From the NCBI RefSeq assembly GCF_014201465.1, contig NZ_JACHEP010000020.1:1-56358 (forward strand): a DNA stretch of 56,358 nucleotides, given 5' to 3'. The notes beneath the pieces are model-generated. The model had not been told where the DNA came from, did no database searches, and was given only the letters and a program-made list of their open reading frames with translations. This document shows positions 11,762-55,801 of the stretch, in pieces (the stretch's first letter is position 1; each line of letters opens with the position of its first letter). This DNA comes from Anoxybacteroides tepidamans (GTDB taxonomy: Bacteria > Bacillota > Bacilli > Bacillales > Anoxybacillaceae). A program made the translations under genes and the position numbers.

Positions 11762-14700
11762 ATGAAAATAGGAAAATGGCTAGTGTTTTTTATGTCATCT
11801 ACGATAGTTTTATCCACAATATCAGCATATGCTCAAACTTCAGTGACATCATCCGTTTCGCTATCTACTGTATCACAAGCGAAAAAACAAAAAAATCCTA
11901 GCAAACCGAACAGTAAACGGGTAGAAAATTTGGTCGACCCGTTAGCAACTGATGATACTAAGTCATTGTTTGCGTATCTTAAAGATGTTCGCGGTAAACA
12001 GGTTTTGTTTGGACACCAACATGCAATCGATGAAGGGTTAACGCTTATAGGCTCTAAAGAACTCGAATCTGAAGTAAAAAACTCTGTCGGTGATTTCCCA
12101 GCTGTATTTGGATGGGACACCTTAAGTTTGGAAGGTAAAGAAAAGCCTGGGGTTCCAAACGACCCTAAACAAAGTCGTGCCAACTTAGTAGCTTCTATGA
12201 AGAAGGTTCATAAACTTGGAGGTATTATTGCGTTAAGCGCACATATGCCGAATTTTGTAACAGGTGGCAGTTTCAATGATACTACAGGAAATGTTGTTGA
12301 ACATATTTTGCCAGGTGGCGACAAAAATGCAGAGTTTAATTCTTTCTTAGATAACATTGCACAGTTTGCCAAAGAACTTAAAGACGATAAGGGCAAACAG
12401 ATCCCGATTCTGTTCCGTCCGTTTCATGAGCAAAACGGTAGTTGGTTCTGGTGGGGCGCCAAAACGACGACACCTAGCCAGTATATTGAGATTTACCGTT
12501 ATACGGTAGAATACTTGCGGGATAAGAAAGGTGTCCACAATTTCCTTTACGTTTATTCGCCGAATGGAACTTTCGGCGGAAGTGAAGCAAACTACTTGAC
12601 CACGTATCCTGGCGATGACTATGTCGACATTCTCGGAATGGACCAATATGATAACCAATCTAATCCGGGGACTACCCAATTCCTCACCAATCTAGTGAAA
12701 GATTTGGAGATGATATCCAAATTAGCCGATACCAAAGGAAAAATCGCAGCGTTTTCGGAGTTTGGCTATAGCCCACAAGGGATGAAGACAACGGGTAACG
12801 GAGATCTCAAGTGGTTTACCAAAGTCCTGAATGCGATCAAAGCAGATCGGAACGCCAAACGCATCGCTTATATGCAGACTTGGGCCAATTTCGGTCTGAA
12901 CGGTAACTTATTCGTTCCTTACAATGACGCTCCGAACGGCTTGGGCGACCATGAGCTTTTACCTGACTTTATCAACTACTACAAAGATCCATATACGGCG
13001 TTCCTTCGTGAAGTGAAAGGTGTTTACAATAATAAAGTCGAAGCTGCAAAAGAGCAGCCGTTCATGCATATTGCTTCACCGACGGACAATGCTACGGTAA
13101 AAACGGCGACGACGAAAATTCGTGTCCGAGTGCTTAACCAAAAACCGTCCAAAGTCGTTTATGTCGTTGAGGGATCCAGTAAAGAAGTGCCGATGAAACT
13201 CGACGCAGATGGCTACTATTCAGCGAATTGGTCCCCGGTTTCCAAGTTTAACGGTAAATCGGTCAAAATTACGGTGAAGTCCTATATGCCAAACAAGACC
13301 GTGATGAAGCAGACAGTAAATGTGTTTGTCAAAGTTCCCGAAATTTTGATTAAGCAATTTACATTTGATAGGGATATTAAAGGGATCCGAAACATCGGTA
13401 CTTGGCCGGATACAATTAAGACGAATTTTGAACATGCTAGGTTGAACGGAAATGGTAAGCTGAAAATTAACATAACCGGTATGGTACGTACCGACACGTG
13501 GCAAGAGATTAAGTTAGAGTTATCCAATATTAAGGACATTGTTCCGCTCTCCAATGTTAACCGTGTGAAATTTGATGTGCTCGTTCCAGTATCCGCAGGA
13601 CAACAAAATGCAAATGCCAGCTTGCGCGGAATTATAATGCTTCCTCCAGATTGGAATGAAAAATATGGAATGACGACCACAGAGAAAGCATTAGCTAATT
13701 TGCAAACGGTTACAATAAATAGGGTTAAATATGCGGAATTTCCAGTTATGATTGATCTGAACGATCCGGCTAAGTTGTCGGCGGCGAAGGGGCTTGTTCT
13801 CTCTATTGTCGGAAATGGATTGGAATTGAACGGTGCAGTATATGTTGACAATATCAAGTTGTTCAGCACCTATACAGAAACGCCGACTGATCCTGCGCTG
13901 GTAGACGATTTTGAGTCTTACCAAGGCAGCAACGCTGTCTTACAGCAAAAGTTTGTAAAAGCAGGTGGGGACACGATTACGGTTTCATTGGATGGCTCTC
14001 ACAAAAGCAGCGGCACATATGCTATGAAGGTTGACTATACGCTTGCTGGTTCAGGTTATGCGGGTGTTACGAAATCGTTGGGCGGAGTGGATTGGTCCAG
14101 ATTCAACAAATTGAAATTCTGGCTCACACCGGACGGGAAAGATCAGAAGCTTGTTATCCAGCTCAGAGTGGACGGCGTATACTACGAAGCGTATCCGTCG
14201 CTTGCTTCCACTACACCGGGATGGGTTGAGCTTCACTTCAACGATTTCACCGTCGCACCTTGGGATACCGCTAATTTAGGCAAAAAACTCAATAAAATAA
14301 GCCTAAAAAACGTACAAGACTTCGCAATTTATGTAAACTCCAAAAACGGTACGACGCTTAGCAGTACCCTGTATTTCGACGATATTAAAGCGATCTACGA
14401 CGCAACCGCCGCATCGGTTCCGAACGGCGGAACCGGCCCGGGAAGCACGCCGGAGCAGCCCGGCACGCTCTATGATTTCGAAACGGGCGTTCAAGGATGG
14501 GAAGTGGAGCAGAACCAAGCCAACGCGACGACTCCGACTATCACAACTGACGCAGCCGCGAAAGGCACCCATTCGCTGACATCGACCTTCGATTTGACGA
14601 AGACAGGTGGCTTTGAGCTGACGAAAGTACAGGTTGTCGATCTTTCCGCTGTGAAGACGATCAGTGCGAAAGTAAAGATATCCACCGGCACTGCAAATGC

Positions 14701-15235: not shown

Positions 15236-15240
15236 TATCA

Positions 15241-15822
15241 TTATTTCAAGATTTTTTTTAACGAAAGTCTGACTGCTATCCCGTATAAGAATGGTGCAAA
15301 GAAAATAAAAAAAACCAAATTCAGTTTTGCGACCCAAATAAAGAGCATGGTCCAAAACAACACATAAAGAGAGTGAATGAGATGACGATATAAAGAATAA
15401 AATGACAAGGCTAATGTCTGTTTAACGGTCAAAGGCCGAAACGCAGTATAATTCGCAAAATATATGAGAGCAATAAAAATGACGACTAATAAATAAACGA
15501 CAACAATCGTCAACGCCAGCGAATAACTGCTTTCTGATTTGTTTAGAAAAAAAAGGGAAGACCAGCAAATAATCAATAACAATGAAAACGTAAAGGACAA
15601 TAGCTTATATGTGCGAAATTTATTAAAATGCTGATCAAATAACTCCTTTATGTCTTGAACATCTTTTTGCAGCAAAAAATCATCAACAGTTCGGAATAAT
15701 GAGGATAAAGAAGGTATTAGACTATAAATAAACACTCCCTTGAGGAGTGATAACCAAAAGAAAATACTGATTTGAATGCATTTGTAGACCGTTTGAAAAA
15801 AAGTATAGATTTTATTATCCAT
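15241..15822 (-). CDS. DUF624 (YesL-type) membrane protein
   Basis: A 193-residue membrane protein with four or five hydrophobic segments, beginning MDNKIYTFFQTVYKCIQISI and containing LTVKQTLALSFYSLYRHL, the pattern of the DUF624/YesL family. Function is unknown. Such genes usually sit beside sugar ABC importers, YesM/YesN pairs or LacI regulators in Firmicutes. I place the start at 15822 (AAAGGAG eight bases ahead) rather than at 15840. It is 63 bases after the LacI gene on the same strand and may be cotranscribed. Its stop abuts the MATE remnant. Confidence 0.75.
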   Translation of the reverse strand: MDNKIYTFFQTVYKCIQISIFFWLSLLKGVFIYSLIPSLSSLFRTVDDFLLQKDVQDIKELFDQHFNKFRTYKLLSFTFSLLLIICWSSLFFLNKSESSYSLALTIVVVYLLVVIFIALIYFANYTAFRPLTVKQTLALSFYSLYRHLIHSLYVLFWTMLFIWVAKLNLVFFIFFAPFLYGIAVRLSLKKILK

Positions 15823-15885
15823 TTCGTTCTCTCCTTTCAATTGAAAAAAACTATTGGAGATTAGAAAAGAAACAAGGTAATAACA

Positions 15886-16899
15886 TTACCTTGTTTCAAT
15901 GTTTTTTACAGAATCTCTGTAAATAATTCTCCCTTTTATTTGTACTCTTCCGAACTTCCGATGTTTATTTTTTATTTTCCCAATGATAAATTGAACAGCT
16001 GTTTTCGCCATCTCTTCTATATCCACTTCAACAGTTGTCAACGGGGGATCCGTAATGGTTGCATAAATATCATTATCAAATCCAACAACGGAAAAATCAT
16101 CAGGAACACTATATCCAAGCTTTTTAAGTTTTGTCACCAAATTATGAGCAACTTGGTCACAATTGCAAACGAACGCCGTCGGCAATTCATCAGGGAGCTC
16201 AATATCAATATATTTCCCCCGTTCATCCCGGTCATTAATAATAAACTTTTCGTTTAACTTAATTCGGTGTTCTAATAAAGATTTAAAATAGCCCAAGAAT
16301 CTGTCTTGTATGCTGCTTGTGGAGTAAATATTCCCGACATAAGCAATTTTTCGATGGCCATTTTTGATTAAATAATTCGTTATTTCATAAGCACCATAAA
16401 AATTATCTGTTATCACCGTATCTACATCGCTATGTTCATCATAAAAGTCTAAAAAGATTTTCGGGATGTCTACACTCTGGATTTTTTCAATATAATCCTT
16501 GCTAATTTGACCAAGAAGAATTATACCATCTACTTTTTGTTCATAATAAATTCTTGGAAGGTTTAATTGTTCCTCATCTTCGGTATCCAGTATATATAAC
16601 ATTCCGTAATAACCGTGTTCCTCCAATTTCTTAGAAATCGCTTGATATATTTTTAAATAAAACGATTGGGATAGTCCTGTAAACCGTTCAGGAATGATAA
16701 CCCCTACATTATAAGTAACTCCTTCCTTCATTGATTTGGCCGCCGCGTTAAAGCGGTATCCCAATTCTTCAGCGAGCATTTTTATTTTTGTACGCAGCTC
16801 TTCACTTACACCTTCTTTATCATTAAGTGCCTTTGAAACGGTTACACTGCTGACACCCAATCTTTCTGCTATATCACGCATCGTGACACTGTTTTTCAT
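15886..16899 (-). CDS. LacI-family transcriptional repressor
   Basis: A 337-residue regulator. The N-terminal LacI HTH is at residues 5-25 (VTMRDIAERLGVSSVTVSKAL), then the hinge LGYRFNAAAKSMK and a periplasmic-binding-type sensor domain (YNVGVIIP, KVDGIILLGQIS, TAFVCNCDQVAH, FSVVGFDNDIYA). The start at 16899 is chosen for GGAGGTGAT seven bases ahead; an upstream in-frame ATG at 16929 lacks such a site. Flanked by the DUF624 gene and the phosphorylase/epimerase pair, it probably senses a manno-oligosaccharide or mannosyl-glucose and controls the GTTA..TAAC-type operators nearby. The effector is inferred. Confidence 0.9.
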   Translation of the reverse strand: MKNSVTMRDIAERLGVSSVTVSKALNDKEGVSEELRTKIKMLAEELGYRFNAAAKSMKEGVTYNVGVIIPERFTGLSQSFYLKIYQAISKKLEEHGYYGMLYILDTEDEEQLNLPRIYYEQKVDGIILLGQISKDYIEKIQSVDIPKIFLDFYDEHSDVDTVITDNFYGAYEITNYLIKNGHRKIAYVGNIYSTSSIQDRFLGYFKSLLEHRIKLNEKFIINDRDERGKYIDIELPDELPTAFVCNCDQVAHNLVTKLKKLGYSVPDDFSVVGFDNDIYATITDPPLTTVEVDIEEMAKTAVQFIIGKIKNKHRKFGRVQIKGRIIYRDSVKNIETR

Positions 16900-17047
16900 C
16901 TCATCACCTCCGGCTACACCTAAAAACAAACAATCCGTGTTGCAATGAATTCACTACTAATAGTATATCTGTTTGATCATCTTTTTTCTATTTAATTTCA
17001 AAATAACAAATAAATGCTGCGATTTTGCTGTTAAGTCTTTAAAAGTG

Positions 17048-17109: not shown

Positions 17110-18291
17110 CTATTTATGCTTTGACAAAAGTTCATTATTTCTCTCGATTAATTCGATACGCTGTTTTGCACAGTCAAGAGAACGGAACGGATCTTCTGGT
17201 GTATTGAAAGTATAATCGACCAATTTTTCTACTGTTGTGGTTGCTACATGAATACGAGTGTCACTAGATGCATAGTAAATAAACACTTCATTTTTTTCAT
17301 TCACAACAGCTCCATTGCAGAAGATGACATTTGAGACATCCCCGACCCGTTCATCATCATATGGCGCGATGAAATGCCCACTAGGTTTTGCAATTACTTT
17401 TGATGGATCTTCAAGGCTTGTAGCAAAAGTATATAAAACATAACGTAATCCTGCTGCCGTGTTTCTAACGCCGTGAGCAATATGGATCCAACCTTTTTCC
17501 GTTTTAATCGGAGCAGGTCCTTGACCGTTTTTCACTTCATAGACGGTATGATATTTTCTTTCATCGATAACTTTTTCTTTTTTAATTACAGGATTTTCAA
17601 TATCATCGCATAAACCGAACGCAATTCCACCGCCAGTACCTGTTGAGATAAAACCATCTTGTGGGCGGGTATAAAACGCGTATTTTCCATCAACAAATTC
17701 CGGATGTAGTACAACGTTTCGTTGTTGAGGAGACGGCGTTTGAATATTAGGTAATCTTTCCCATTTTTTTAAATCTTTTGTACGTACCAAAGCTGCTTGA
17801 GCAACGGCACTTGAAGTATCATAATGCGGCGCATTTGGATCTTTACTTTCAGAACAATAAATCCCATAAATCCAACCATCTTCATGTTTGACAAGCCGCA
17901 TGTCATACATATTCGTTTCCTCTTTGTCGATATCTTCCCATGTTAACGGAACATCGATAAAGCGGAATTGATCAATGCCGCTTTCGCTTTCTGCAATCGC
18001 AAAAAACGATTTGCGATCAACACCTTCTACACGAACAACCAAATAATATTTCCCATTTAAATAAATAGCACCTGGATTAAAGACTGCGTTAACCCCTAAC
18101 CGTTCCATAAAATGCGGATTCGTTTCCTTATTTAAATCAAATCTCCAATGAATCGGTATGTGGTGTCGTGTAAGAACAGGGTATTTATACCGATTGTAAA
18201 CACCATTATAAAACTCCTCATTTACTTCGTTTTTTCTTGCGATTAATTTCTCCTGTTTTTCTAATAGCTCGTAATATTTCTCATGAATCAT
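17110..18291 (-). CDS. GH130 phosphorylase, probably 4-O-beta-mannosyl-glucose phosphorylase
   Basis: A 393-residue cytoplasmic GH130 enzyme with a five-bladed propeller. Family marks include [23 protein letters not shown], the catalytic-Asp region [15 protein letters not shown], and [20 protein letters not shown]. Length and the N-terminal helical extension fit subfamily GH130_1, which converts mannosyl-beta-1,4-glucose and phosphate into mannose 1-phosphate and glucose. Its ATG (18291) overlaps the epimerase stop by four bases (ATGA), so the two are translationally coupled. That pairing matches the known mannobiose route (epimerise, then phosphorolyse). Subfamily assignment is by length and context. 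Confidence 0.9.
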
Positions 18292-19478
18292 TTTCCTTTC
18301 ATCCTTTCTATAACTTCCAAACAAAATCTTCCATTATGATACGAAGCCTTCCATGGATCACAGATATTTTTCTTCGAAGGGATTCCGTTTTCATCAACAG
18401 ACCAGTACCATTCACCATTATCCCGATGATCAATAATATATTTTTTCGTATATTCCCAAAGATTTTTCACCAATTCTAAAAATTTAACATCTTTTGTTCG
18501 CTCGTAGGCGTTAAGAAAGCCGACCATTGCTTCTGCTTGGACCCACCATACTCTTGATGTATCAATCTTATCGTCTACTTGTTCATTGATTAACGATCCA
18601 TCCGCTTGAATCGCGGTATGAGCAATGTTATAGGCAATATCTATGACCATTTGGACATACTCTTCTTTTTCAAGGCCAATCGTTTTTAACGCTTCATCAA
18701 TTAACCAACTCGCTTCAATGTCATGACCGAAAGATTTCATATCTATCAAACTGTTCCAATTTTTATCAAAAAAGACACCTAAAAATTTGCTGTTTTGATC
18801 GTAAATGTTGTGATAAAGGATGTGCAGGAGGTTTTCAATTCTCTCTTTTAATTGTTCATTTGACCACACTTTGTAAAGGTTTGTGTATGCCTCTAACACG
18901 TGAATATGAGTGTTCATCGTAATATCGGCAAGGACACCGTTTTCACTCAACATTTCATTTGGCATCTCATTCCATTCACGATCAAATTCTTCTTTATAGG
19001 CATTGTTTTTTGGATCAAAACCTTTGTTTTCTATTAAAAAATAAAGGTTTTTAGCAAGTTTAAGCGCATTCTCATCGTTTTTCGCTCGATAATATTCACT
19101 TAAAGCATAAATTCCAAAAGACTGTGTATATACGTGTTTTCGAGTGTCTTTTGGTTCACCTTTGTAATTAACTAACCAATAAAGTCCGTCATATTCGTCA
19201 TCGTAAATGTTTTCAACTAAAAACTGATAAAGATGATTGGCGATTTGCAAATATTTTTCGTTTCTAGTGACACGGTAAGCCGATGAAAATGTCCATAAAA
19301 ATCTGGATGTAACGATCCCGCCTTTATCGGCTTGTTGATCAACACGTAAATCAAAATCAACTTTCCCATAAATACCGCCATACTCATAGTCCACTAACTT
19401 TTCCCAAAATGGCAATATGTGTTCAAATAACTCGTTCTCTACTTCGCGGACAAGCGTTAGCACCTGTTTTACCTCCAT
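18288..19478 (-). CDS. Cellobiose/mannobiose 2-epimerase (AGE superfamily)
   Basis: A 396-residue (alpha/alpha)6-barrel protein of the N-acylglucosamine 2-epimerase superfamily, cellobiose 2-epimerase type. The segments [48 protein letters not shown] and [19 protein letters not shown] carry the conserved active-site histidines and tryptophans. It would convert the reducing-end mannose of beta-1,4-mannobiose to glucose. It is coupled by ATGA overlap to the downstream GH130 gene, which uses the product. The start at 19478 has GGAGG, and an operator-like palindrome lies upstream. Confidence 0.9.
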
Positions 19479-19490: not shown

Positions 19491-19503
19491 GTTAATCGAT
19501 AAC
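19491..19503 (-). promoter_or_regulatory. Operator-like palindrome before the epimerase-phosphorylase operon
   Basis: GTTA-ATCGA-TAAC is a short inverted repeat just upstream of the epimerase start. It resembles TTAACGATAAC before GH26 and TTAACGTTAA before the first binding-protein gene, consistent with a common LacI-family site. Confidence 0.45.
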
Positions 19504-19892: not shown

Positions 19893-21003
19893 TATATAAA
19901 TGTAACTTAAGGTTTTAACTTTCGTATAAGGTATGGTTATTTTGCCGATATTGCTCCTAGAACCCAACGGAAAAGGAGCGACATGAGGCCAATGAAACGA
20001 TTAAAAATTACAAATGATCACGGATTCATCATTCGAAAATTACAAAAAGAAGAACGCAAAATCAAGGAAGCTTTGTTGCATCAACGAGTGACAGCGGTTC
20101 GGTTGATCATGGAGGGCTACTTGGGCGAAGAGATCGTCTCCATGTTGAACATTCACCGCCAATCCATGTTGACCTATGTGTCTTTGTTCAACGACGGTGG
20201 ATTTGAGAAGCTTCTTGATAAGAAAGTACCACAAGAAAGTACCACTTGGAAAACCCCATTTCTAACGGCAGAACAACAAATGAAGTTAAAACAAATGATT
20301 GTGACCAGCACGCCGTTCGATGAAAGATTCGGAATGGCGGCTTCTTGGGATACGCGCATCGTTCGAGCTTATCTTCAAGAACACTATGTGATTTCCATGA
20401 CGAGAATGGGCGTCTATAAAATGCTTCGCCGCATAGGCCTTTCTTATACGCGCCCTACCTATATATTGGCAAAGGGAAACGAGCAACAATAACGTGCCTT
20501 TGTGAAAGAGATGGAAATCTGAGGTAGGCAAACAAAAACAAATCCCGATTTATGGGTACCATGCGAGTGTCATATTATTTAGTGCGGTTATAACGTACTC
20601 AATTGGGGGGATTTGGATCCAACAGGCCCTTGCTTGTAACGCCATGTCCTTTCTAGAGTTTGGAAATATCTTTTACAATCCTATTAAAGGAAAGCACCTT
20701 CTTCTCGTTATTGATAACGCTCGAATTCACCATGCGAAGCAGGTGAAAGAGTTTTTACGCGAACACGAAAAGGAGCTTTTTTGATCTTTTTACCACCTTA
20801 TTCTCCACAGCTGAATCCCATTGAGCATCTTTGGAAATGGTTAAAAGAGTCTGTCATTGCCAATCGTTTTCACAAAGACGTACAAGCCATTGAGCAGTCG
20901 GTGAACAGCTTCTTAAGAGTATATTGAACATCGTGGTTACGAGGTTCTACAGCGCTTGGGATGTGCCTCTTGAGAAGTCGAAATGCTAAGTTAAATTTAT
21001 ATA
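19893..21003 (+). mobile_element. Decayed IS630-family insertion sequence
   Basis: TATATAAATGTAACTTA (19893-19909) and the near-complement at 20987-21003 form terminal inverted repeats with one mismatch. Between them is an IS630 transposase with a premature stop at 20490-20492 and a missing central segment. C-terminal pieces persist: HLLLVIDNARIHHAKQVKEF, PPYSPQLNPIEHLWKWLKES. The element separates the epimerase operon from the oligosaccharide importer. The exact edges are estimated from the repeats. Confidence 0.75.
19983..20935 (+). pseudogene. IS630 transposase, interrupted
   Basis: The first 169 codons (19983-20492) are open and encode the paired helix-turn-helix part (AVRLIMEGYLGEEIVSMLNI, MTRMGVYKMLRRIGLSYTRP). 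A TAA after NEQQ interrupts it. The expected first catalytic Asp region is deleted or scrambled around 20520-20640. Later frames carry IDNARIHH and the last catalytic Glu in LNPIEHLWKW, but on shifted frames. Confidence 0.8.
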
Positions 21004-21214: not shown

Positions 21215-21239
21215 CTTTATTGATAAAGGGGGATTAAAT

Positions 21240-45642: not shown

Positions 45643-45680
45643 AATATGAATAATAGTCATAGTAGAAAAGGGTGTGTGAC

Positions 45681-46514
45681 ATGAGATTGGGAGGTCCCGT
45701 TTTTATGGATGGTTATGATCCAGAAAAATGGATTTACTATTTGTTAAAAGAAAACTATCGTTCAGCCGTTTTTCCGCTTAGTTATGATGCGGATGAAGGA
45801 CTGATCAAAGACTATGTGAAGGCTGCAAATGAGAACGATATTCTGATTGCTGAGGTAGGGGCATGGAGTAATCCGATAAGTAAAGACTTGCAGGTTCGAA
45901 AAGCCGCGATCGAGCATTGCAAAAAACAGCTTGAGTTGGCAGAAATGGTAGGAGCGAGATGCTGTGTTAACATTGCAGGCTCGAGAGGGGAGCAATGGGA
46001 CGGCCCCGCTGCTGAAAATTTTACGAGTGAAACGTTTGAGTTAATTGTCGATTCTATACGAGAGATTATTGATACAGTGAAGCCTAAGCGAACCTTTTAT
46101 ACGCTTGAAACGATGCCTTGGATTTTTCCTGATTGTGCGGAATCCTATCTTGAGTTGATTAAGGCGGTCGATCGGAAGGAGTTTGCGGTTCATTTTGACC
46201 CTGTTAATATGATTACTAGTCCTAGAGTTTATTACCGAAACGGAGAAATGATAAAGGAATTTATCGCTAAATTAGGCCCATTTATCAAAAGCTGTCATGC
46301 TAAAGATATAATCATGTCTGCGAATTTTATGGTTCATCTAGACGAAACAAGCCCAGGAGCTGGAATATTAGATTATAAAGTACTGCTCTATGAGTTAAAT
46401 AAATTGGATCGAGATATGCCAATTATTCTAGAGCATTTGTCCAACGAAAAAGAGTATCGAAATGCTGCTGCTTATATAAGAAATGTGGCGAAAGAATTGA
46501 ACATTCCGATCTAA
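45681..46514 (+). CDS. Sugar phosphate isomerase/epimerase family TIM-barrel protein
   Basis: A 277-residue protein of the xylose-isomerase-like TIM-barrel (AP endonuclease 2) superfamily. Segments such as ILIAEVGAWSNP, ARCCVNIAGSRGEQWDGPA, TFYTLETMPWIFPD, FAVHFDPVNMI, KSCHAKDIIM and MPIILEHL place the metal ligands Glu, Asp, His and Glu. Members are sugar epimerases, isomerases or keto-sugar dehydratases. ATG at 45681 is chosen over an in-frame GTG at 45672. With the reductases and dehydrogenase it suggests an oxidoreductive sugar branch; the reaction is not identified. Confidence 0.8.
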   Translation: MRLGGPVFMDGYDPEKWIYYLLKENYRSAVFPLSYDADEGLIKDYVKAANENDILIAEVGAWSNPISKDLQVRKAAIEHCKKQLELAEMVGARCCVNIAGSRGEQWDGPAAENFTSETFELIVDSIREIIDTVKPKRTFYTLETMPWIFPDCAESYLELIKAVDRKEFAVHFDPVNMITSPRVYYRNGEMIKEFIAKLGPFIKSCHAKDIIMSANFMVHLDETSPGAGILDYKVLLYELNKLDRDMPIILEHLSNEKEYRNAAAYIRNVAKELNIPI

Positions 46515-46734: not shown

Positions 46735-48036
46735 ATGAAAAAATTTAGGATTTTAAGTTTTTTACTGGTTGTGATGTTATTATCGTTGACCGCATGTTCT
46801 GGCAGCAGTGAACAGTCCTCTGGAAAATCTTCAGATGATAGTGAAGGAAAAATTGAATTGACTTTTTGGAACATATGGACAGATCCTTCACCACAAAATA
46901 AGGCAAGTTTAAAACAAGTTGAAAAATTTATGAAAGAACATCCGAATATCGTGATTAAACAACAAAATATTCCGCATGACCAGTATAAAGTTAAGTTGAA
47001 AACACAAGCAGCTGGAAAACAGCTTCCTGATTTAATTCAAGTATGGCCGGGAGCAGAGCTAAAGCCATTAGTGGACGGCGGTTTAGTGCAACCGTTGGAT
47101 GACATTGTAAGCAATTGGGATAGTTTAATCACCAACAAGGATTATTTAAAAGACTATCAAATTAGTGGAAAGCAATATGCCATTCCGGCGAACGTAACTC
47201 CAACAAGTGTAGTGTATTATGATAAAGATATGCTTGCGAAAGTGGGATATAACGAATTCCCTAAAACATATGAAGAGTTCAAAACACTTATTAAAAAATT
47301 AAAAGATAGTGGTACAATTCCGATTGCTCTAGGAAACAAAGCGCAATGGGTTCTTCAATCTAGTTATATTAGTACAATTGGAGATCGTTTGACAGGTAGT
47401 GATTTCTTAAAATCCGTATTAGAAACGGGAAAGAAAAAATTCACCGATGAGAAATTTATTAAAGCGGTGGGCATTATTAAAGAATTAGCAGATATGGGAG
47501 CGTTTAATGACGACTTCAACTCCATCGATAACAATCAGCACAGAGATTTATTCATCTCAGGTGATGCGGCGATGATGATTGACGGTGCATGGTCTTTAGG
47601 TCCAGTATTAGAAGCTGCGCCTAATAAACATATTGGACTTGCACTCTTCCCGCAAGTAGACGGCGGACTTGGTGATCCTACTGCAGTCTCAGCGGTAACA
47701 GGTACTGGAATTGCGATCAACAGTGAACTTAAAGGGGAGAAACTAAAAGCAGCACAAGAGTTTTTAAAAGCATTTTATGGTGAAGATTATTATAAAAATT
47801 TAATGAAAGCTGATATTTTAGTGCCTGCCAATATCGAGCCGCCTGCTGACATTAGCCCGCAGTTAAAAGAAATGGCCGAATTAACAAGTAAGAAGATTGC
47901 ACCTGTTTATGATGCGACTCTTCCTACTGAAGTGACGGATATTATTAATGCCGGCTTGCAAGAAGTCACATTAGGAACGATGACACCTGAACAATTGGCT
48001 AAAAAGCTTCAAGAAGCGGTGGATAAGCAAAAGTAA
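46735..48036 (+). CDS. Sugar ABC importer binding lipoprotein (system 2)
   Basis: A 433-residue family-1 binding lipoprotein with signal and lipobox LTAC, Ser-rich linker, then IELTFWNIWTDPSPQNKASL and YAIPANVTPTSVVYYDKDML. It is clearly different from the system-1 protein, so a different oligosaccharide length or decoration is likely. It is followed by a strong hairpin, two permeases and a YesM/YesN pair. That arrangement is common where the two-component system senses the sugar and activates the importer. GAGGGGG precedes the ATG. Confidence 0.88.
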   Translation: MKKFRILSFLLVVMLLSLTACSGSSEQSSGKSSDDSEGKIELTFWNIWTDPSPQNKASLKQVEKFMKEHPNIVIKQQNIPHDQYKVKLKTQAAGKQLPDLIQVWPGAELKPLVDGGLVQPLDDIVSNWDSLITNKDYLKDYQISGKQYAIPANVTPTSVVYYDKDMLAKVGYNEFPKTYEEFKTLIKKLKDSGTIPIALGNKAQWVLQSSYISTIGDRLTGSDFLKSVLETGKKKFTDEKFIKAVGIIKELADMGAFNDDFNSIDNNQHRDLFISGDAAMMIDGAWSLGPVLEAAPNKHIGLALFPQVDGGLGDPTAVSAVTGTGIAINSELKGEKLKAAQEFLKAFYGEDYYKNLMKADILVPANIEPPADISPQLKEMAELTSKKIAPVYDATLPTEVTDIINAGLQEVTLGTMTPEQLAKKLQEAVDKQK

Positions 48037-48047
48037 AATAGCCGGAT

Positions 48048-48087
48048 GGAAATCAAGACAGCAATTGTTCTTGATTTCCTCTTTTTT
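48048..48087 (+). terminator. Intra-operon hairpin between second binding protein and permeases
   Basis: GGAAATCAAGA (48048-48058) pairs perfectly with TCTTGATTTCC (48069-48079), followed by TCTTTTTTC. As in system 1, it lies between lipoprotein and permease genes and probably limits permease expression. Confidence 0.8.
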
Positions 48088-48101
48088 CAAGGAGGGAGCC
48101 T

Positions 48102-48977
48102 ATGCATCTTTTAAGTCAGAAAAAATGGCCGATACTCATTGGTCTCGCACCTGCAATTATCGTTTATTTTTTATTTGCTATTATTCCCATTGTCATCTCT
48201 TTTTACTATTCTTTAATGGATTGGGACGGCTTTACCAAAATGACGTTTGTCGGGTTAGCCAATTTCAAGGAAGTCTTTAACGATCCGATTTTTTGGCAAT
48301 CTTTAAAAAATAACCTTTATGTCCTAGCTGCCTCTGTTTTTGGTCAAGTTCCGATCGCGTTGTTTTTTGCCCTGCTGTTAAACCGAAAATTAAAAGGCGG
48401 GAAGTTTTTTAGAACGGTCGGTTTTATGCCTGTGGTGATTTCAACCGTTGTCATTTCTTTAGTTTGGGGAATGATGTATAACGCAAGAATAGGGCTATTT
48501 AATCAATTTCTCAAGATCATTGGGCTTGAGCAATGGGCACAAAACTGGCTTGGGGATCCAAAATGGGCCATGGTTTCTGTATCTATCACAATTATTTGGC
48601 AGTTTGTAGGGCTGTATTTAATTATTTTTCTCGCCGCACTTCAGAATATTCCGCAAGAAATTTATGATGCCTCTGAAATTGATGGCGCTTCGGGGTTAAA
48701 ACAAACCATCTACATTGTTTTGCCGATGATATGGGATACGATTATCGTTGCGGTTATTTTATGTATCAGTGGAAGTTTGCGTACGTTTGATTTAATTTAT
48801 GTAATGACATCAGGTGGGCCAGGACATGCTACGGAAGTAATGGCCATGTACATGTTTGACAAAACCTTTTCATCCACACGCTACGGATATGGCAGTGCGA
48901 TTTCTTTATGTATCTTTTTCTTTAGTTTGGCATTGATTTATATTTCAAATCTCATTTTAAGAAGAAAAACTGTTTAA
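48102..48977 (+). CDS. Sugar ABC importer permease (MalF/UgpA type, system 2)
   Basis: A 291-residue permease with six helices, opening MHLLSQKKWPILIGLAPAII. EAA loop: YDASEIDGASGLKQTIYIVLP. Then ILCISGSLRTFDLIYVMTSG GPGHAT region, typical for the family. AAGGAGGGAGCC is the ribosome site. It pairs with the permease 16 bases downstream. No ATPase in the operon. Confidence 0.88.
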   Translation: MHLLSQKKWPILIGLAPAIIVYFLFAIIPIVISFYYSLMDWDGFTKMTFVGLANFKEVFNDPIFWQSLKNNLYVLAASVFGQVPIALFFALLLNRKLKGGKFFRTVGFMPVVISTVVISLVWGMMYNARIGLFNQFLKIIGLEQWAQNWLGDPKWAMVSVSITIIWQFVGLYLIIFLAALQNIPQEIYDASEIDGASGLKQTIYIVLPMIWDTIIVAVILCISGSLRTFDLIYVMTSGGPGHATEVMAMYMFDKTFSSTRYGYGSAISLCIFFFSLALIYISNLILRRKTV

Positions 48978-48993
48978 GAAAGGGGGAGTTTCG

Positions 48994-49878
48994 ATGGCTC
49001 AACCGGCTTATCAACGAAACACAAATGTTTCCGTCCAAGAAGGAATAGAAAAAAAACAGAAAAATGTAAAAAAAACATTTATTTATTTCATTTTAATGAT
49101 TTATGCACTGGTGAATACTTATCCAATTATTTGGATGGTGATCAATTCGTTTAAAAACAATATTGAATTTTCCAAAAAACCGTTTTCTTTACCTGAAGTA
49201 TGGCAGTTTGAAAATTATAAAACAGCTTGGAAAACAGCACACTTGGATACCTATTTATTAAATAGCATCATTGTATCCGTTAGCGCGGTAATCCTTACGG
49301 TATTTTTGGGGGCATTAGCGTCTTACTTTTTAGCAAGGTTCTCATTTAAATGGGGAAAATACATTTATACTTTTTTTACCTTTGGTATGCTGATCCCAGT
49401 TCATGCGACGTTAGTCCCATTGTTTTTACTGATGAAAAATCTTGGGCTGTTAAATACGCATGTTGGACTGATATTGCCTTATATCGCCTTTAATCTGCCG
49501 ATTACGATTTTTATATTAGTAAGTTTTATGAAATCTTTCCCTTTGGATATTGAGGAATCGGCGATTATGGACGGATGCGGGGTTTTTCGGATATTCTGGC
49601 ATATCATTCTTCCGATGACAAGACCAGCTTTAGCCACAGTTGTTATTTTAAATTTTATCAACAATTGGAATGAATTTTCATTCGCATTAGTGTTGGTCAA
49701 TGACGAATCACTGAAAACGCTTCCTCTTGGATTAGCGAATTTTGCCGGACAGTTTACGACAAATTACGGGGCACAAATGGCGGGATTAACGCTAGCAATT
49801 ATTCCGACGATTATTATTTACGTGTTGTTAGAAGAACATCTCGTGAAAGGGATGACAGCCGGAGCTGTAAAAGGGTAA
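48994..49878 (+). CDS. Sugar ABC importer permease (MalG/UgpE type, system 2)
   Basis: A 294-residue permease, with an N-terminal hydrophilic tail of about 28 residues before the first helix (FIYFILMIYALVNTYPIIWM). EAA loop EESAIMDGCGVFRIFWHIIL. The C-terminal VKGMTAGAVKG is the usual family end. AAAGGGGGAG precedes the ATG. It precedes the YesM kinase gene by 38 bases on the same strand. Confidence 0.88.
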   Translation: MAQPAYQRNTNVSVQEGIEKKQKNVKKTFIYFILMIYALVNTYPIIWMVINSFKNNIEFSKKPFSLPEVWQFENYKTAWKTAHLDTYLLNSIIVSVSAVILTVFLGALASYFLARFSFKWGKYIYTFFTFGMLIPVHATLVPLFLLMKNLGLLNTHVGLILPYIAFNLPITIFILVSFMKSFPLDIEESAIMDGCGVFRIFWHIILPMTRPALATVVILNFINNWNEFSFALVLVNDESLKTLPLGLANFAGQFTTNYGAQMAGLTLAIIPTIIIYVLLEEHLVKGMTAGAVKG

Positions 49879-49916: not shown

Positions 49917-51701
49917 ATGAAGCGGTTCTTTTTCTTTTCTGATTGGAAGCTTCAATGGAAATTTTTATTTATTTTTTTAGTTTTTATTTTCATTCCGATG
50001 CTTGCCTTCAGCATTTTCATTTATTCTCAAGCGAATAAGGCTGTCCAATTGCAAGCAATTAACAATACGAAAGGGCACCTTGAAAAAATTAACGAAAATC
50101 TATCAGCTGTCTTGAAAGATATTGAAAATATTTCTTCCTATATGATTTACAGTGAAGATATCCGAGCTTATTTAAAAACCCCAAAAAATCTATCGAATTG
50201 GAATCGTTTAACCGATTTGGAAGATCGGATTAATGGTTTTGCGATATTTCATCTGACGTCAAAGTTTTACTTGCATTCCATTTCATTAATGAGCAACTAT
50301 TATAACCAGATTCATATCGGTATTTATTATGATGCGAACGAACAAAATGAAAAGCTTTCGATGGAAAAAGCAAAAGAGCGAATGGGAAAAGTGTATTGGA
50401 GCGATGTATATACCGTGAAAGACCAATGGAAGAGAGAAAATAAGGTGATGAGTTTATTTCGGGTAATTAATGATATCAATAATGTCTCTCTGCCATTAGG
50501 CATGGTCGTCATTCGCGTGGATTTAAAAAAGATATATGATTATATCGAAACGGATTTTAGAGATTTAGAAAAAATGTTTGTAATTAGTCGGAACGGAACA
50601 GTGGTCATGCACGCTAATTCGACGTATATTGGGCGCGTTTTTCCAGATCAAAAAATTTTACAGGAAATCCGCAAACATGATCATGAGCCAATCACATTAA
50701 GTTATCAAAAACAACATACAACGTACCATGTCGTCACACAACCGGTGGATGGAACCGATCTTGTGATTATTGGATTTGTGAATGAGGCAAGCATTGCTGA
50801 AGGAATAACAGGGATGCAAAAATCTATCCGATTTATGATGATCGTGTTGACTTTATTAGGATTCATGGCCATGTTAGGCTTCTATCATTTTAATATTAAA
50901 AGAATTCAAGATTTAATTAAGCAAACACATCAAGTCGAAAAAGGAGATTTAACAGCAAGTGTCACAGTAAAACACAAGGATGAAATCGGGCTTTTGGGAA
51001 TTCGTTTTAATAAGATGGTGACTAGGCTTAGAAATTTAATTGAAAATGAATACCAAATGGAAATCAAAAACAGGGAGTCTGAATTAAAATTACTCCAAAG
51101 CCAAATTAATCCCCATTTTCTCTATAATACGCTCGATATGATTAGATGGACAGCCCGGTTGGAGCAGGCCATGGAAACAAGTAAACTCATTGAACAGCTT
51201 TCCAAAATGTTTCGAATCAGTTTAAATAGAGGGAAAATTTTAATAACTATTCAAGATGAGTTATCATATAGCCAAAGTTACCTAGAGCTGCAAAAAAGAA
51301 GGTTAGGAAATACACTGGAATTTTACATCTTTTGCGATCATGAAGCTTTACAGGCGATTGTTTTAAAACAAATGATTCAACCGTTAATTGAAAACAGCAT
51401 CAACCATGGGTTTGAGAATATGCGTGCACTAAAGAAAATCTATATTCGTTGTTTTAAAGAAAATTCCTATTTGATTATAGACGTCATGGATAATGGGAAA
51501 GGATTTTCCAATGAACAATTTGAAATGGTCACTAAAAAAGGATATGCATTAAAAAATATCCATGATCGCTTGAAGATTGCTTTTGGCAACGAAGCACAGA
51601 TAGAGATCAAACAGAAAGCAGATCCTGGCGCATGGGTTAGAATTACTCTTCCGTTCAAAGAAAAGGAAGATGATGTTGAGGTTATTCATAAGTGTAGGTG
51701 A
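49917..51701 (+). CDS. YesM-type sensor histidine kinase
   Basis: A 594-residue membrane kinase: first helix at about residues 15-37 (FLFIFLVFIFIPMLAFSIFI), a Cache-like extracellular sensor to about 300, second helix FMMIVLTLLGFMAMLGFYHF, HAMP (IKQTHQVEKGDLTASVTVKH), the His_kinase domain with the phospho-accepting His in QINPHFLYNTLDMIRW (about residue 400), and the ATPase part with PLIENSINHGFEN and DNGKGFS. With its YesN partner it probably senses an extracellular oligosaccharide or a loaded binding protein and controls the adjacent importer. The stop overlaps the response-regulator frame. Confidence 0.92.
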   Translation: MKRFFFFSDWKLQWKFLFIFLVFIFIPMLAFSIFIYSQANKAVQLQAINNTKGHLEKINENLSAVLKDIENISSYMIYSEDIRAYLKTPKNLSNWNRLTDLEDRINGFAIFHLTSKFYLHSISLMSNYYNQIHIGIYYDANEQNEKLSMEKAKERMGKVYWSDVYTVKDQWKRENKVMSLFRVINDINNVSLPLGMVVIRVDLKKIYDYIETDFRDLEKMFVISRNGTVVMHANSTYIGRVFPDQKILQEIRKHDHEPITLSYQKQHTTYHVVTQPVDGTDLVIIGFVNEASIAEGITGMQKSIRFMMIVLTLLGFMAMLGFYHFNIKRIQDLIKQTHQVEKGDLTASVTVKHKDEIGLLGIRFNKMVTRLRNLIENEYQMEIKNRESELKLLQSQINPHFLYNTLDMIRWTARLEQAMETSKLIEQLSKMFRISLNRGKILITIQDELSYSQSYLELQKRRLGNTLEFYIFCDHEALQAIVLKQMIQPLIENSINHGFENMRALKKIYIRCFKENSYLIIDVMDNGKGFSNEQFEMVTKKGYALKNIHDRLKIAFGNEAQIEIKQKADPGAWVRITLPFKEKEDDVEVIHKCR

Positions 51702-51709
51702 GTGAAATT

Positions 51710-53224
51710 TTGGAATTTAATGTGCTAATCGTCGACGATGAACCGATCATTTGTCATGGATTGCGGCATACCGTTCCTTGGGAGGAACTTGGCATCAATG
51801 TGGTTGGCGAGGCCTATGACGGTGAAGAAGCGCTCAGCCTTCTCGATCAATTGGAAGTGGATTTAATTTTATCTGACGTGAAGATGCCCATTATGGATGG
51901 ATTGGAATTAGCGGAACATATTTTTACGCATTATCCTTACATTCGGATGATTATGATTAGCGGTTATGACGAATTTGAATATGCCAAACGCGCGATAAGA
52001 CTCGGGGTAAAAGATTATTTGCTAAAACCTGTTGATATTGATGAATTAATAGAGATTGTCTCAAACATCAAAGAAGAAGTAATGAGGGATCGAGAGAAAG
52101 AATGGCGAATGAGAGCTAATCAGCTATTATCTTCCATTGTCATGGGCCAGGAAATCAGCTTGAATGAAGATTCCCTGAAATCGATCATTGGGAAATATCA
52201 GTTGATCGGGAGCGCGATTGAAAATTATTCAAAGACTGTCCATCCTTTAACGAATGAAAAAGAGCAGAAAGTCAAAAAACAGTGGATGAATCTAATTGAG
52301 TTTGAGTTAACTCAAAAGAAATGCTTTTGCACATCCTTGTTTGTGGGAAAAAATCTGCTCGTGACAATGTGTAAAATGAACGATCATTTTACGGACATCA
52401 AAGAAATGTTAAAAAAGGTTGAAAAAAAATTAAGTTATCCGATGTTCTTTTGTGTCTCTGATTCTTTTTCAGATACTGTTGAATTAAAAAAACAATATGA
52501 TAAGCTGCTTGATGGGATGAAGACGTTGCCGTTTCAAAACGAAAAAATAATTTCTCTTAAAAATATTCAAATCAATCTACGTTCTCCCGCATTACCGGCG
52601 GAATTTGTGCAAAAGATAAAACAATGCAATTATGGTGAAATTAACGAAGTCGAAATAGTTGTTGAGGAGATGTTTGAATACTTCAAAAATGAGCATTATT
52701 TTTTGGAAGATGTCGTTTCCGTTTTAAAAAAATTAGAAATGAATCTATTTGAATGGTTTCGCCATAAGCCAAAGTTAAGATTGTTTGGTGAAATTGATGT
52801 GACCATTTATAATTCTTACGCCCAAATAAAAGAATTGTTTTTAGATGATCTGAAAGATTGTTTTTCTTATCAAGTGTTCGCTACCCAATTTGAACAGCGG
52901 CGACTCATTGAGAAAGCGATTTCTTATATTCATGAAAACTATCAAAAAGACATAAAGGCTATGGATGTAGCAGCATATATCAATGTTTCTCCCAACTATT
53001 TCAGTCAATTAATTAAACAAGCAACAGGGATGCATTTTAATGATTTTTTACACGAAGTACGGATTCAGCAAGCAAAGAAATTGTTAACTGAAACGAATTA
53101 CCGCATCTTTGAAATTGGAGAATTAGTCGGCTATAAAGACTACAAATATTTCGTTCATATTTTTAAAAAATTGACTTCCATTCCTCCGTCAAAATATCGA
53201 ACCATTGTGTCCCACGCAAAGTAG
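51710..53224 (+). CDS. YesN-type AraC-family response regulator
   Basis: A roughly 504-residue regulator: receiver domain at 1-120 with VDDEP, the phospho-accepting Asp in DLILSDVKMPIMDG and the conserved Lys in DYLLKPVD; a poorly conserved middle region; and an AraC-type double HTH at the C terminus (AISYIHENYQKDIKAMDVAA, NYFSQLIKQATGMHFNDFLH, GYKDYKYFVHIFKK). TTG at 51710 has AGGTGA eight bases ahead; GTG at 51698 overlaps the kinase stop and is the alternative. AraC-type regulators bind direct repeats, and the 34-bp triple repeat at 31481 is a candidate site. Confidence 0.9.
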   Translation: MEFNVLIVDDEPIICHGLRHTVPWEELGINVVGEAYDGEEALSLLDQLEVDLILSDVKMPIMDGLELAEHIFTHYPYIRMIMISGYDEFEYAKRAIRLGVKDYLLKPVDIDELIEIVSNIKEEVMRDREKEWRMRANQLLSSIVMGQEISLNEDSLKSIIGKYQLIGSAIENYSKTVHPLTNEKEQKVKKQWMNLIEFELTQKKCFCTSLFVGKNLLVTMCKMNDHFTDIKEMLKKVEKKLSYPMFFCVSDSFSDTVELKKQYDKLLDGMKTLPFQNEKIISLKNIQINLRSPALPAEFVQKIKQCNYGEINEVEIVVEEMFEYFKNEHYFLEDVVSVLKKLEMNLFEWFRHKPKLRLFGEIDVTIYNSYAQIKELFLDDLKDCFSYQVFATQFEQRRLIEKAISYIHENYQKDIKAMDVAAYINVSPNYFSQLIKQATGMHFNDFLHEVRIQQAKKLLTETNYRIFEIGELVGYKDYKYFVHIFKKLTSIPPSKYRTIVSHAK

Positions 53225-53293
53225 ACAAACGAGGGATTGGATTTCACATATTACATGTTTTCAACTTGTAAAAAGTTAAAGGGGAAATGTGTC

Positions 53294-55801
53294 ATGAAGA
53301 TAACAAATAATTGGAAACTTCAATGGTTTGAACCGGGTGAAAAACACCCGCTTGAAATTGCGTCGCCTGCCTATATTGATCATTTTTGGATGACAACGAA
53401 TGTGCCCGGGGATGTTCACACCACCTTAATCTCCAAAAAGATCATCGAAGATCCGTTTGTCGGTCACAATGATTTGAAATGCCGTTGGGTGGAAGAAAAA
53501 GAGTGGTGGTATAGAACCACCTTTGAATGGCAAGAAGAATTAAATGAAGGGGAATTTGTCGAACTAATTTTTGAAGGGCTTGATACGTATGCTACGATCT
53601 ATTTCAATGGGGTGGAAATAGGCAGTACGGAAAATATGTTCATTGAACATGAATTTGAAGTTACGAGAGAACTGAAAAAAGGTAAAAACGTCATAGCGGT
53701 CAAATTTGATCCTGTTCACATACGCGTTGCTGGAAAAGAGAGAAATTATTGGTGCAGCTATGGAAAGGAAAGGAGTTGGATAAGAAAAGCAGCAATGAAT
53801 TTTGGATGGGACTGGGGACCTAGGCTTGTGACGGTAGGGATATGGAAAGATGTCTATTTGTTGAAAAGAAAAAAAGCTAAGCTCCATAGTGTGTTCCCTA
53901 AAACAGTAGAACTGACTTCTGAATTGGCGATAGTAGAAGTGGAAGTAGAAACAAAATCGTATTATTTCACAAACGAAACGTTGACCGTTGAAGTGTTGAT
54001 ATCTTCTAATCAAGGATCGTTTTCTGCGTATTCCGTGATCGATAATAAAACGGGTAAGGTCGTTGTCGAAGTGACAAATCCGATTCTCTGGTGGACACAT
54101 GATTTAGGCCAACCGTATTTGTATGAACTAAAAGTGTTATTAAAAGATAAGAAGAACAATATTCTTGATCAATGTAGCCAACTGTTTGGCATACGGAAAA
54201 TAGTCATCGAACAAAAACATGAAAATGGTGAAAATTTATTTGCTTTTAACTTAAACGGAATTCGTCTCTTCGCAAAAGGAGCAAACTGGATTCCTGTTCA
54301 TAACTTTATCGGTTCAGTTAATGAAAACCGATACATGAAATTACTTAAATTAGTGAAAGGCGCCCACATGAATATGATACGGGTTTGGGGTGGCGGCATT
54401 TATGAAAAAGATATTTTTTATGAAACGTGCGACCGTCTCGGCATTCTCGTCTGGCAAGATTTTATGTTTGCAAACGCTTTATATCCCGATTACAATAAAA
54501 ATTTTATGAAAAATGTCCGAGAAGAAGTCATAAAGGTAATCAAACGATTAAGAAAATATACATCGCTCGCCCTTTGGTGTGGCAACAATGAAATTGATTG
54601 GATTTACGAAAGAAAAAAAACGGACGGAGAAGTTACAACACCTTTTTATGGAGAGACAATTTATCATCAACTCATTCCTGAGCTGTTGAATGAGCTAGAT
54701 GGAACACGTTTTTATTGGCCGAGCTCACCATATGGAGGTAATGATTTTAATTCTGAAGATAATGGTGACCGTCACAATTGGCAAGTGTGGCATGGAAATG
54801 TAGAGCCAAGAAAGATTGGGGAACCTGTAATACAGAATATTTCGGTCGAGGGGGTTTCATTCAAAAATTATAAAAAGGATTGCACACGTTTTTCTAGCGA
54901 ATTCGGCATGCACGCCTCATCCAATCGCTACACACTAAAAAAATATATCCCAGAAGGGGAGTTTTATTGGAAAAGTGACGAAATGGCGTATCGAAACAAA
55001 GATCATTTTCATGAAAAAGGGATTCTTTTGATGGAAGGATATACAGGGATTCCAACTGATATGGAAGAGTACATTCATTATTCCATGTTAACTCAAGCAG
55101 AAGGATTGAAATATGGAATTGAGCATTATAGGCGTAATAAACCGTTTACAAGCGGTGCCCTCATTTGGCAGTTAAATGATTGTTGGCCGGGAACGAGCTG
55201 GTCGATGATTGACTATGAATTGTTGCCAAAAGCGTCGTATTATTATGCGCGGAAATTTTTTGCTCCTGTCACGGTTACGATCGACCATGATCCGGGCAAA
55301 CCGATCCACATATGGGGGATCAATGATAAGTTATGGAAAATCGAAGATTCTCTCGTAGTAGAAGTGTTCCATGTTGAAGGAAAGCAATTATTCTCTAAAC
55401 AATATGACTTTGTCATTGAACCAAATCAAGTAAAACATATTGCTAGCTTTTCTGAAAAAAAGGTATTAAGGGGTGCGAAACCAGAAACAGTTGTCTTACG
55501 ATTACGATCATTAAATGGGCGATTTTTAGATAATATTTATTATTTACGTGATTCAAAGGAAATGAATTATCCAAAAGCCCAGTTACAAGTCAGCCGTTCT
55601 ACAGAAAACAACACGATCACCATTATATCCGATCAATTAGCTCGTTTTGTTACGATCGATATTCCACAAGAAGAAGTTCTTTGCTCGGATAATTTCTTTG
55701 ATTTATTACCGGGGGAGACAAAAACGATTCAACTTCAGCATTTATCAGGGAAAGACATTCGAATTGATGAAATCTCTGTTTTTGCGTTGAATAGTATCTA
55801 A
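53294..55801 (+). CDS. GH2 beta-mannosidase (second copy)
   Basis: An 835-residue cytoplasmic beta-mannosidase: N-terminal jelly roll (TTNVPGDVHTTLISKKIIED, NFGWDWGPRLVTVGIWKDVY), Ig-like domain, barrel with RVWGGGIYEKDIFYE, acid/base Glu433 in WCGNNEIDW and nucleophile Glu536 in RFSSEFGMHAS. ATG at 53294 follows AAAGGGGAA; the longer frame from 53237 lacks a ribosome site. It follows the YesM/YesN pair by 69 bases, so it may share their control, unlike the first copy, which sits under a LacI-type operator. Confidence 0.93.
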   Translation: MKITNNWKLQWFEPGEKHPLEIASPAYIDHFWMTTNVPGDVHTTLISKKIIEDPFVGHNDLKCRWVEEKEWWYRTTFEWQEELNEGEFVELIFEGLDTYATIYFNGVEIGSTENMFIEHEFEVTRELKKGKNVIAVKFDPVHIRVAGKERNYWCSYGKERSWIRKAAMNFGWDWGPRLVTVGIWKDVYLLKRKKAKLHSVFPKTVELTSELAIVEVEVETKSYYFTNETLTVEVLISSNQGSFSAYSVIDNKTGKVVVEVTNPILWWTHDLGQPYLYELKVLLKDKKNNILDQCSQLFGIRKIVIEQKHENGENLFAFNLNGIRLFAKGANWIPVHNFIGSVNENRYMKLLKLVKGAHMNMIRVWGGGIYEKDIFYETCDRLGILVWQDFMFANALYPDYNKNFMKNVREEVIKVIKRLRKYTSLALWCGNNEIDWIYERKKTDGEVTTPFYGETIYHQLIPELLNELDGTRFYWPSSPYGGNDFNSEDNGDRHNWQVWHGNVEPRKIGEPVIQNISVEGVSFKNYKKDCTRFSSEFGMHASSNRYTLKKYIPEGEFYWKSDEMAYRNKDHFHEKGILLMEGYTGIPTDMEEYIHYSMLTQAEGLKYGIEHYRRNKPFTSGALIWQLNDCWPGTSWSMIDYELLPKASYYYARKFFAPVTVTIDHDPGKPIHIWGINDKLWKIEDSLVVEVFHVEGKQLFSKQYDFVIEPNQVKHIASFSEKKVLRGAKPETVVLRLRSLNGRFLDNIYYLRDSKEMNYPKAQLQVSRSTENNTITIISDQLARFVTIDIPQEEVLCSDNFFDLLPGETKTIQLQHLSGKDIRIDEISVFALNSI

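Follow-up and report, generated by a model that had tools for sequence, protein, structure and literature searches.

The genome of Anoxybacteroides tepidamans (assembly GCF_014201465.1) carries, on contig NZ_JACHEP010000020.1, a 44,040-bp block of genes that is very probably a locus for the use of plant β-mannan, of a kind known in Bacillota and probably acquired horizontally. We analyzed the 56,358 nucleotides of this contig (hereafter the window), in which the block occupies 11762-55801. Brought together in it are a secreted mannanase, an ATP-binding cassette (ABC) importer, a LacI-family regulator, a 2-epimerase, a phosphorylase of glycoside hydrolase family 130 subfamily 1 (GH130_1) and intracellular hydrolases, the combination that marks a phosphorolytic-hydrolytic mannan locus of Bacillota. 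Pfam scans, which covered 40 window proteins (a subset of the listed open reading frames, ORFs), found with scores above cut-off every enzyme family that an earlier note, made from the sequence alone, had listed: GH26, GH113, two GH2 of the mannosidase type, GH1, GH36, two GH130 and a protein of the N-acylglucosamine-2-epimerase family. They likewise matched ROK, class I ManA, GDSL and CE7 esterases, two LacI regulators, a sensor with an AraC-type regulator, and two import gene sets, each comprising a solute-binding protein and two permeases. The nearest solved structures found by phmmer fit the assigned enzyme families. Catalytic residues are visible as the note had stated, with the expected motifs present in each of the 12 enzymes checked, the kinase excepted, and GH26 is indeed the only enzyme with a signal-like N terminus by a crude hydropathy check. 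A similarly crude lipobox check gives both solute-binding proteins lipoprotein-type leaders. Missing from the earlier list were an exporter-type ABC half-transporter, a MATE transporter, two aldo-keto reductases, a Zn-dehydrogenase, a TIM-barrel isomerase-like protein and, among regulators, the two LacI proteins and one two-component pair. No Rfam family matched the window at gathering thresholds, and ARAGORN found no tRNA in it. The genes of the block up to the GH1 gene are these, each with its strand and the basis of its assignment.

11762..14908, + strand: secreted GH26 β-mannanase with CBM27, CBM11 and mannanase galactose-binding-like domains (Pfam, catalytic motifs, signal-like N terminus)
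15241..15840, - strand: small membrane protein (no Pfam match; NCBIfam MusI_fam far below cut-off)
15886..16929, - strand: LacI-family regulator, probable core repressor (Pfam; recurrence near GH130_1)
17110..18324, - strand: GH130_1, mannosylglucose phosphorylase type (phmmer 5ay9, 3was; Tyr-Asp at acid motif)
18288..19478, - strand: cellobiose-type (probable mannobiose) 2-epimerase (Pfam PF07221; phmmer 5zhb; His motifs)
21240..24383, + strand: importer 1, a solute-binding lipoprotein and two permeases, without ATPase (Pfam; lipobox)
24420..25451, + strand: GH130_2, probable β-1,4-mannooligosaccharide phosphorylase (phmmer 1vkd, 5ayd, 4udg)
26864..29050, - strand: GH36 α-galactosidase (Pfam; phmmer 4fnq AgaB, 1060 bits)
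29356..30266, - strand: ROK sugar kinase, broken frame (open frame ends at 29499; C-terminal piece in another frame)
30270..31220, - strand: mannose-6-phosphate isomerase ManA, class I (NCBIfam TIGR00218 above cut-off)
31596..32252, + strand: GDSL esterase, probable intracellular deacetylase (Pfam; phmmer to acetyl xylan esterases, E 9e-32)
32292..34070, + strand: exporter-type ABC half-transporter (Pfam ABC_membrane and ABC_tran)
34070..35026, + strand: GH113 intracellular mannanase or exo-oligomannosidase (Pfam; phmmer 5ylh, E 9.1e-156)
35141..37609, + strand: GH2 β-mannosidase (Pfam; phmmer 6bye, E 1.4e-173)
37636..38700, + strand: second LacI-family regulator (Pfam)
38761..39750, + strand: aldo-keto reductase 1 (Pfam; NCBIfam matches below cut-off)
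39766..40728, + strand: CE7 acetyl esterase (Pfam AXE1; phmmer 3fcy, E 1.9e-117)
40788..42161, + strand: MATE transporter (Pfam; TIGR00797 above cut-off)
42158..43543, + strand: GH1 β-glucosidase (NCBIfam TIGR03356 BGL above cut-off; phmmer 8ht0, E 1.9e-230)

The phosphorolytic side of the locus is carried by two GH130 proteins and the epimerase. The protein encoded at 17110 matches, over its full length, the 4-O-β-D-mannosyl-D-glucose phosphorylases RaMP1 and BfMGP (E 2.1e-170 with 5ay9 and 2.5e-161 with 3was; next best 4e-29), and in its acid motif, NMYDMRLV, a Tyr rather than a Glu adjoins the catalytic Asp. Both GH130 proteins have this Tyr, which is described as a mark of GH130 subfamilies 1 and 2 versus the remaining family (PMC4599007). 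By these subfamily criteria, the protein at 17110 is a predicted mannosylglucose phosphorylase. The second protein (24420) is most similar to TM1225 (1vkd, E 4.5e-155), followed by the Ruminococcus mannooligosaccharide phosphorylase RaMP2 (5ayd, E 2.3e-124), and is probably a β-1,4-mannooligosaccharide phosphorylase; the sequence does not settle whether its acceptor is a mannooligosaccharide or an N-glycan, because the N-glycan phosphorylase UhgbMP scores almost equally (4udg, E 1.7e-122). The epimerase has the cellobiose 2-epimerase 5zhb as its nearest structure (E 8.9e-165) and the conserved His motifs, and matches the NCBIfam EpiA model with a score below its cut-off. This cellobiose-type enzyme probably acts on mannobiose.

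Comparison with known systems places the locus more precisely. The Bacillus subtilis gmuBACDREFG genes, like the locus here, include a secreted GH26, a ROK kinase and a ManA-type isomerase, and combine import by a phosphotransferase system (PTS) with a phospho-glycosidase; no PTS family was found among the 40 window proteins scanned, and the block is thus not of the gmu type. In Roseburia intestinalis, hydrolysis by GH113 and phosphorolysis by GH130_2, epimerase and GH130_1 run in parallel, with ABC import, GH36, esterases and LacI regulation (PMC6385246). The large and small Roseburia loci have in common with the window GH26, GH113, GH36, a GH1-containing protein, GH130_1, GH130_2 and the epimerase, as well as two esterases, a LacI regulator and an ABC importer (PMC6385246). 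As described there, GH3 glucosidases and an in-locus phosphomutase belong to the Roseburia side only, whereas the window has GH1, two GH2, CE7 and GDSL esterases, extra transporters and oxidoreductases and a broken ROK gene, and a mutase was not found in it. The 16.6-kb man cluster of Bacillus sp. N16-5, with 12 genes, is highly transcribed only on galactomannan, mannose or galactose failing to induce it, and its binding protein takes mannotriose and longer chains as ligands (PMC4792470, PMC3542313). Shared with it are the LacI regulator, an ABC importer lacking an ATPase, two mannanases of which one is secreted, an α-galactosidase, a CE7 esterase and a 2-epimerase (PMC4792470, PMC3542313). 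It also has two "glycosidases" of unstated family, and the word "phosphorylase" is absent from the main texts of both papers (PMC4792470, PMC3542313); our guess is that these are GH130 proteins. The pathway of Ruminococcus albus and Bacteroides fragilis, as cited in PMC6385246, leads from mannobiose through mannosylglucose to mannose 1-phosphate and glucose, in organisms of different phyla or orders and in a different gene context. Within the open-licence literature, titles and abstract openings yielded nothing on phosphorolysis in Bacillaceae mannan loci.

The protein families and the parallels with Roseburia and N16-5, from which we infer substrates, flux and induction by mannan, give good support to the scheme of a secreted GH26, import, and intracellular hydrolysis together with phosphorolysis. 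The secreted modular GH26 would cut (galacto)(gluco)mannan outside the cell, and an ABC importer, powered by a shared MsmX-type ATPase whose gene lies outside the locus, would bring in the oligosaccharides. Once in the cell, these would lose galactose to GH36 and acetyl groups to the GDSL and CE7 esterases, while GH1 would remove glucose. The backbone would be degraded in parallel branches, one hydrolytic, in which GH113 and GH2 yield mannose, and one phosphorolytic, in which GH130_2 acts on mannooligosaccharides and the epimerase with GH130_1 turns mannobiose into mannose 1-phosphate and glucose. Mannose 1-phosphate would pass through a phosphohexomutase encoded elsewhere and ManA to fructose 6-phosphate, free mannose would be phosphorylated by a kinase other than the local ROK protein, and the LacI regulator would control the core via TTAWCGWTAA operators.

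Describing the locus as near-complete, as the earlier note did, is an overstatement, because two components must be supplied from outside it, the importer ATPase and the mutase that turns mannose 1-phosphate into mannose 6-phosphate. Phosphohexomutase families had no match among the 40 window proteins scanned; elsewhere in the genome there are three PGM_PMM_I genes, one of them a 621-aa phosphohexomutase frame on contig C14, and none is tied to mannan. Both importers that had been claimed are there, with no ATPase gene beside importer 1 or importer 2; an MsmX-like ATPase that may serve them is encoded at C14:49903-50973 and is 49% identical to the window's UgpC-like ATPase. The suggested splitting to mannose, followed by kinase and ManA, is weakened for a different reason, because the local kinase frame is broken. 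ManA is present, and so is the adjoining ROK gene, but its open frame stops at 29499 after 255 aa, at position 236 of the 294 of the profile, and its last ~50 residues are encoded in another frame, so that no uninterrupted full-length frame exists. The zinc motif of ROK proteins was not found in the open piece. We see an even chance that the break is an assembly or sequencing error and that the kinase is functional: the genome is a draft assembly of 54 contigs and both pieces are otherwise conserved with respect to full-length ROK proteins of relatives, the C-terminal one matching ROK C termini in four of the six relative loci tried (59, 54, 52 and 35%), while a nearby insertion sequence in pieces shows that parts of the region have decayed. 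Three further ROK genes are found elsewhere in the genome.

The gene combination recurs in other Bacilli. A scan of named genomes for GH130_1 gave 261 relatives, of which the best 80 loci were kept and sorted manually by title (39 Bacilli, 41 others); neighbors were counted in the Bacilli loci within flanks not exceeding 10 kb per side, with a minimum identity of 35%. Among these 39 loci, a LacI homolog is a neighbor in all 39, the epimerase in 38, GH130_2 in 20, GH113 or GH2 in 18, CE7 in 16, and GH26 and GH36 in 7 each. Epimerase, GH130_1, LacI, importer, GH130_2 and GH113 recur jointly, and in Metabacillus crassostreae (L020) GH26, GH36, ManA, epimerase, GH130_1, LacI, importer, GH113, GH2 and CE7 are all together. 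In an even set of 397 genomes of the order, searched with cut-offs of E <= 1e-100 for GH130_1, E <= 1e-40 for GH113 and E <= 1e-20 for GH26, GH130_1 occurs in 15 genomes. Of these, 14 have GH113, within 16 kb on the same contig in 13; the exceptions are G084, with GH113 on another contig, and G408, without GH113. The locus is therefore found in ~4% of the sampled genomes (15/397), and a hydrolase beside GH130_1 is the rule (13/15). GH130_1 is also present in 10 of the 18 GH26-bearing genomes. Pairing of hydrolytic and phosphorolytic routes is hence not unusual in this sample, and the contrast drawn earlier with Bacillus mannan loci that would mostly be PTS/hydrolytic is not borne out by these counts, which cover neither PTS loci nor GH5 mannanases and so do not give the share of PTS loci.

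Regulation of the core probably falls to the LacI protein encoded at 15886-16929. We picked the motif TTAWCGWTAA from window promoters, where the following sites were noted, and then checked it in the 39 Bacilli loci.

11637..11648: operator-like site in the GH26 promoter region, containing TTAACGATAA, within promoter-like hexamers at 11632-11661
19492..19503: operator-like site in the promoter region of the epimerase, with a single mismatch to TTAWCGWTAA (judged by eye)
21204..21215: operator-like site ahead of importer 1, containing TTAACGTTAA, with promoter-like hexamers nearby at 21164-21192

The copies before GH26 and importer 1 are exact. In relatives, the motif occurs within 300 bp before the epimerase in 18/37 and before the solute-binding protein of importer 1 in 17/30, against a locus-wide background of 0.019 per 300 bp, some of these upstream regions being common to divergent genes and hence counted twice; it precedes GH36 in one of four and GDSL in neither of two. 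TTAWCGWTAA is thus probably the operator of the adjacent LacI regulator. Scans for promoters (43 vs 55.7 in shuffles, and 65 vs 57.4) and terminators (16 vs 15.4, and 12 vs 14.7) gave no clear excess, and cre sites were near chance (14 found vs 10.1 expected; 18/100 shuffles as high). One palindromic cre-like site, at 46699-46714, lies directly upstream of importer 2, in a scan that is overall at chance level.

The evidence for horizontal acquisition comes from the edges of the block and from its absence in close relatives. Insertion sequences (IS) lie at both edges and two more inside the block.

10747..11576: IS-like remnant at the left island edge, bounded by perfect inverted repeats of 13 bp, 10747-10759 and 11564-11576 (by eye; longest listed ORF inside, 91 aa)
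19983..20970 (end approximate), + strand: insertion sequence in pieces between divergent promoters, presumably IS630-like (first piece 169 aa with helix-turn-helix domains by Pfam; remainder by eye)
25516..26675, - strand: IS3-type insertion sequence with two ORFs, the larger of which matches Pfam rve and HTH_21
56232..56358, + strand: start of a transposase-like frame that we take to be IS1634-like, running to the window end (by eye)

No strong GH130_1 match was found in 6/6 congeners (the genus sample being 7 genomes) or in 18/18 other family genomes, several of which have GH130 proteins of weak similarity (best E 3e-16), and in the order sample A. tepidamans is the sole member of its family with a strong match. 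The left flank is nearly identical to that of the closest congener, G001 (99.3% over 4999-6733 and 97.8% over 6833-10687), and the DNA match stops at 10687, directly after an HD-domain gene. In five of the six congeners (G001, G002, G003, G005 and G006), this gene is followed 1.4-3.4 kb on by a presumably ThrE-like gene with no island between them; in G004 there was no close HD match within the stretch fetched. In A. tepidamans the congener continuation lies near the beginning of contig C9 (from 1749), directly behind a transposase-like stretch that we assume to be IS1182-like, and further island sequence may lie between C9 and C20, the window contig. Contig C30, with an HD-domain gene at its start, had been considered as the right-hand neighbor and was dropped, since no DNA match of 150 bases or longer links it to the congener flanks and C9 fits. 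The alternative, that the genus had the island from the outset and all congeners but this one lost it, seems to us improbable: the genus sample is small and the surroundings of the island are rearranged, but 24/24 other family genomes without strong GH130_1, the uninterrupted site and the insertion sequences at both edges argue against loss. We conclude that the locus was probably acquired horizontally. A GH130_1 tree of 53 rows (the window, two further and 50 of the 80 named loci, with L062-L091 excluded beforehand) points to no donor: the window falls among rows of Bacillaceae and Paenibacillus with no supported sister. Left of the island, 801-6258 holds an ordinary-looking glycerophosphodiester uptake cluster, with a glycerol-3-phosphate antiterminator, a UgpC-like ATPase with permeases and binding protein, and a glycerophosphodiester phosphodiesterase.

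Several observations weigh against reading the entire block as one acquired mannan locus. With the ROK frame broken, no gene is assigned to the mannose-kinase step. TTAWCGWTAA precedes GH26 in only 1/6 relatives and GH113 in 0/18, 6/39 Bacilli loci have no copy, and in the window itself a longer version of the pattern occurs at close to chance frequency (15 copies vs 9.0 expected; 5/100 shuffles as high). The right flank on C9 is 91-92% identical to the same congener to which the left flank is 98-99% identical, and the next part of the congener flank is on contig C2 (94%), so more than one rearrangement took place here. Finally, the comparison of synteny in relatives that had been proposed supports the core and not the genes from ~44.5 kb on, which are near GH130_1 in 0 or 1 of the best 80 named loci (0/80 for each of Zn-dehydrogenase, TIM-barrel protein, sensor, regulator and second GH2; 1/80 for the binding protein of importer 2); their substrate may be a different one. 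The genes to the right of GH1 are as follows.

43569..46514, + strand: aldo-keto reductase 2, Zn-dehydrogenase and TIM-barrel isomerase-like protein (Pfam; all NCBIfam matches below cut-off)
46735..49878, + strand: importer 2, a solute-binding lipoprotein and two permeases, without ATPase (Pfam, lipobox; mannan link by position only)
49917..53224, + strand: two-component sensor and AraC-type response regulator (Pfam)
53237..55801, + strand: second GH2, β-mannosidase type (Pfam; phmmer 5n6u, E 4.8e-159)

There is some chance, well short of even, that two clusters adjoin here, a mannan core at 11.8-43.5 kb and a second one at ~44.5-55.8 kb, with the dehydrogenase, TIM-barrel protein, importer 2, two-component pair and GH2, for another β-mannoside or glycoside. 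Besides the neighbor counts, which are restricted by the flanks of at most 10 kb, the separate regulator of the right-hand part and its G+C content (0.36-0.37 from 46 kb on vs 0.41-0.44 at 42-46 kb) speak for this. However, the second GH2 is closest to β-mannosidases, its 55% homolog in another family genome (L011) adjoins a GH130-type gene, and no insertion sequence was found at 31.6-55.8 kb among the proteins scanned. The L011 GH130-type gene belongs by similarity to neither subfamily 1 nor 2.

Even with the block taken as a single mannan locus, some of its genes have no evident place in the scheme. The exporter-type half-transporter belongs to the mannan operon and overlaps the GH113 start, although a catabolic locus has no obvious need for an exporter, and aldo-keto reductase 2, Zn-dehydrogenase and TIM-barrel genes sit between GH1 and importer 2. 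Homologs of the exporter, 55-56% identical, are near GH130_1 in 3/80 loci, those of Saliterribacillus (L018), Gracilibacillus (L026) and Natronobacillus (L052); MATE and reductase homologs recur in the Natronobacillus mannan locus, and reductase homologs in Streptohalobacillus (L028). It is conceivable, if rather unlikely, that the exporter, MATE transporter, two reductases, dehydrogenase and TIM-barrel protein form an undescribed branch of mannan catabolism traveling with the locus, which may, for example, oxidize or reduce a mannose-derived sugar or expel surplus sugar.

The general view of mannan catabolism is unchanged by this locus. What it illustrates is that mannan loci of Bacilli, too, repeatedly place hydrolases next to the phosphate-using route, which is familiar mainly from bacteria of the gut and rumen, and that such a locus can appear as one large block in a lineage otherwise without it. 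It also provides matching enzymes from a single locus, together with a predicted LacI operator open to direct testing.

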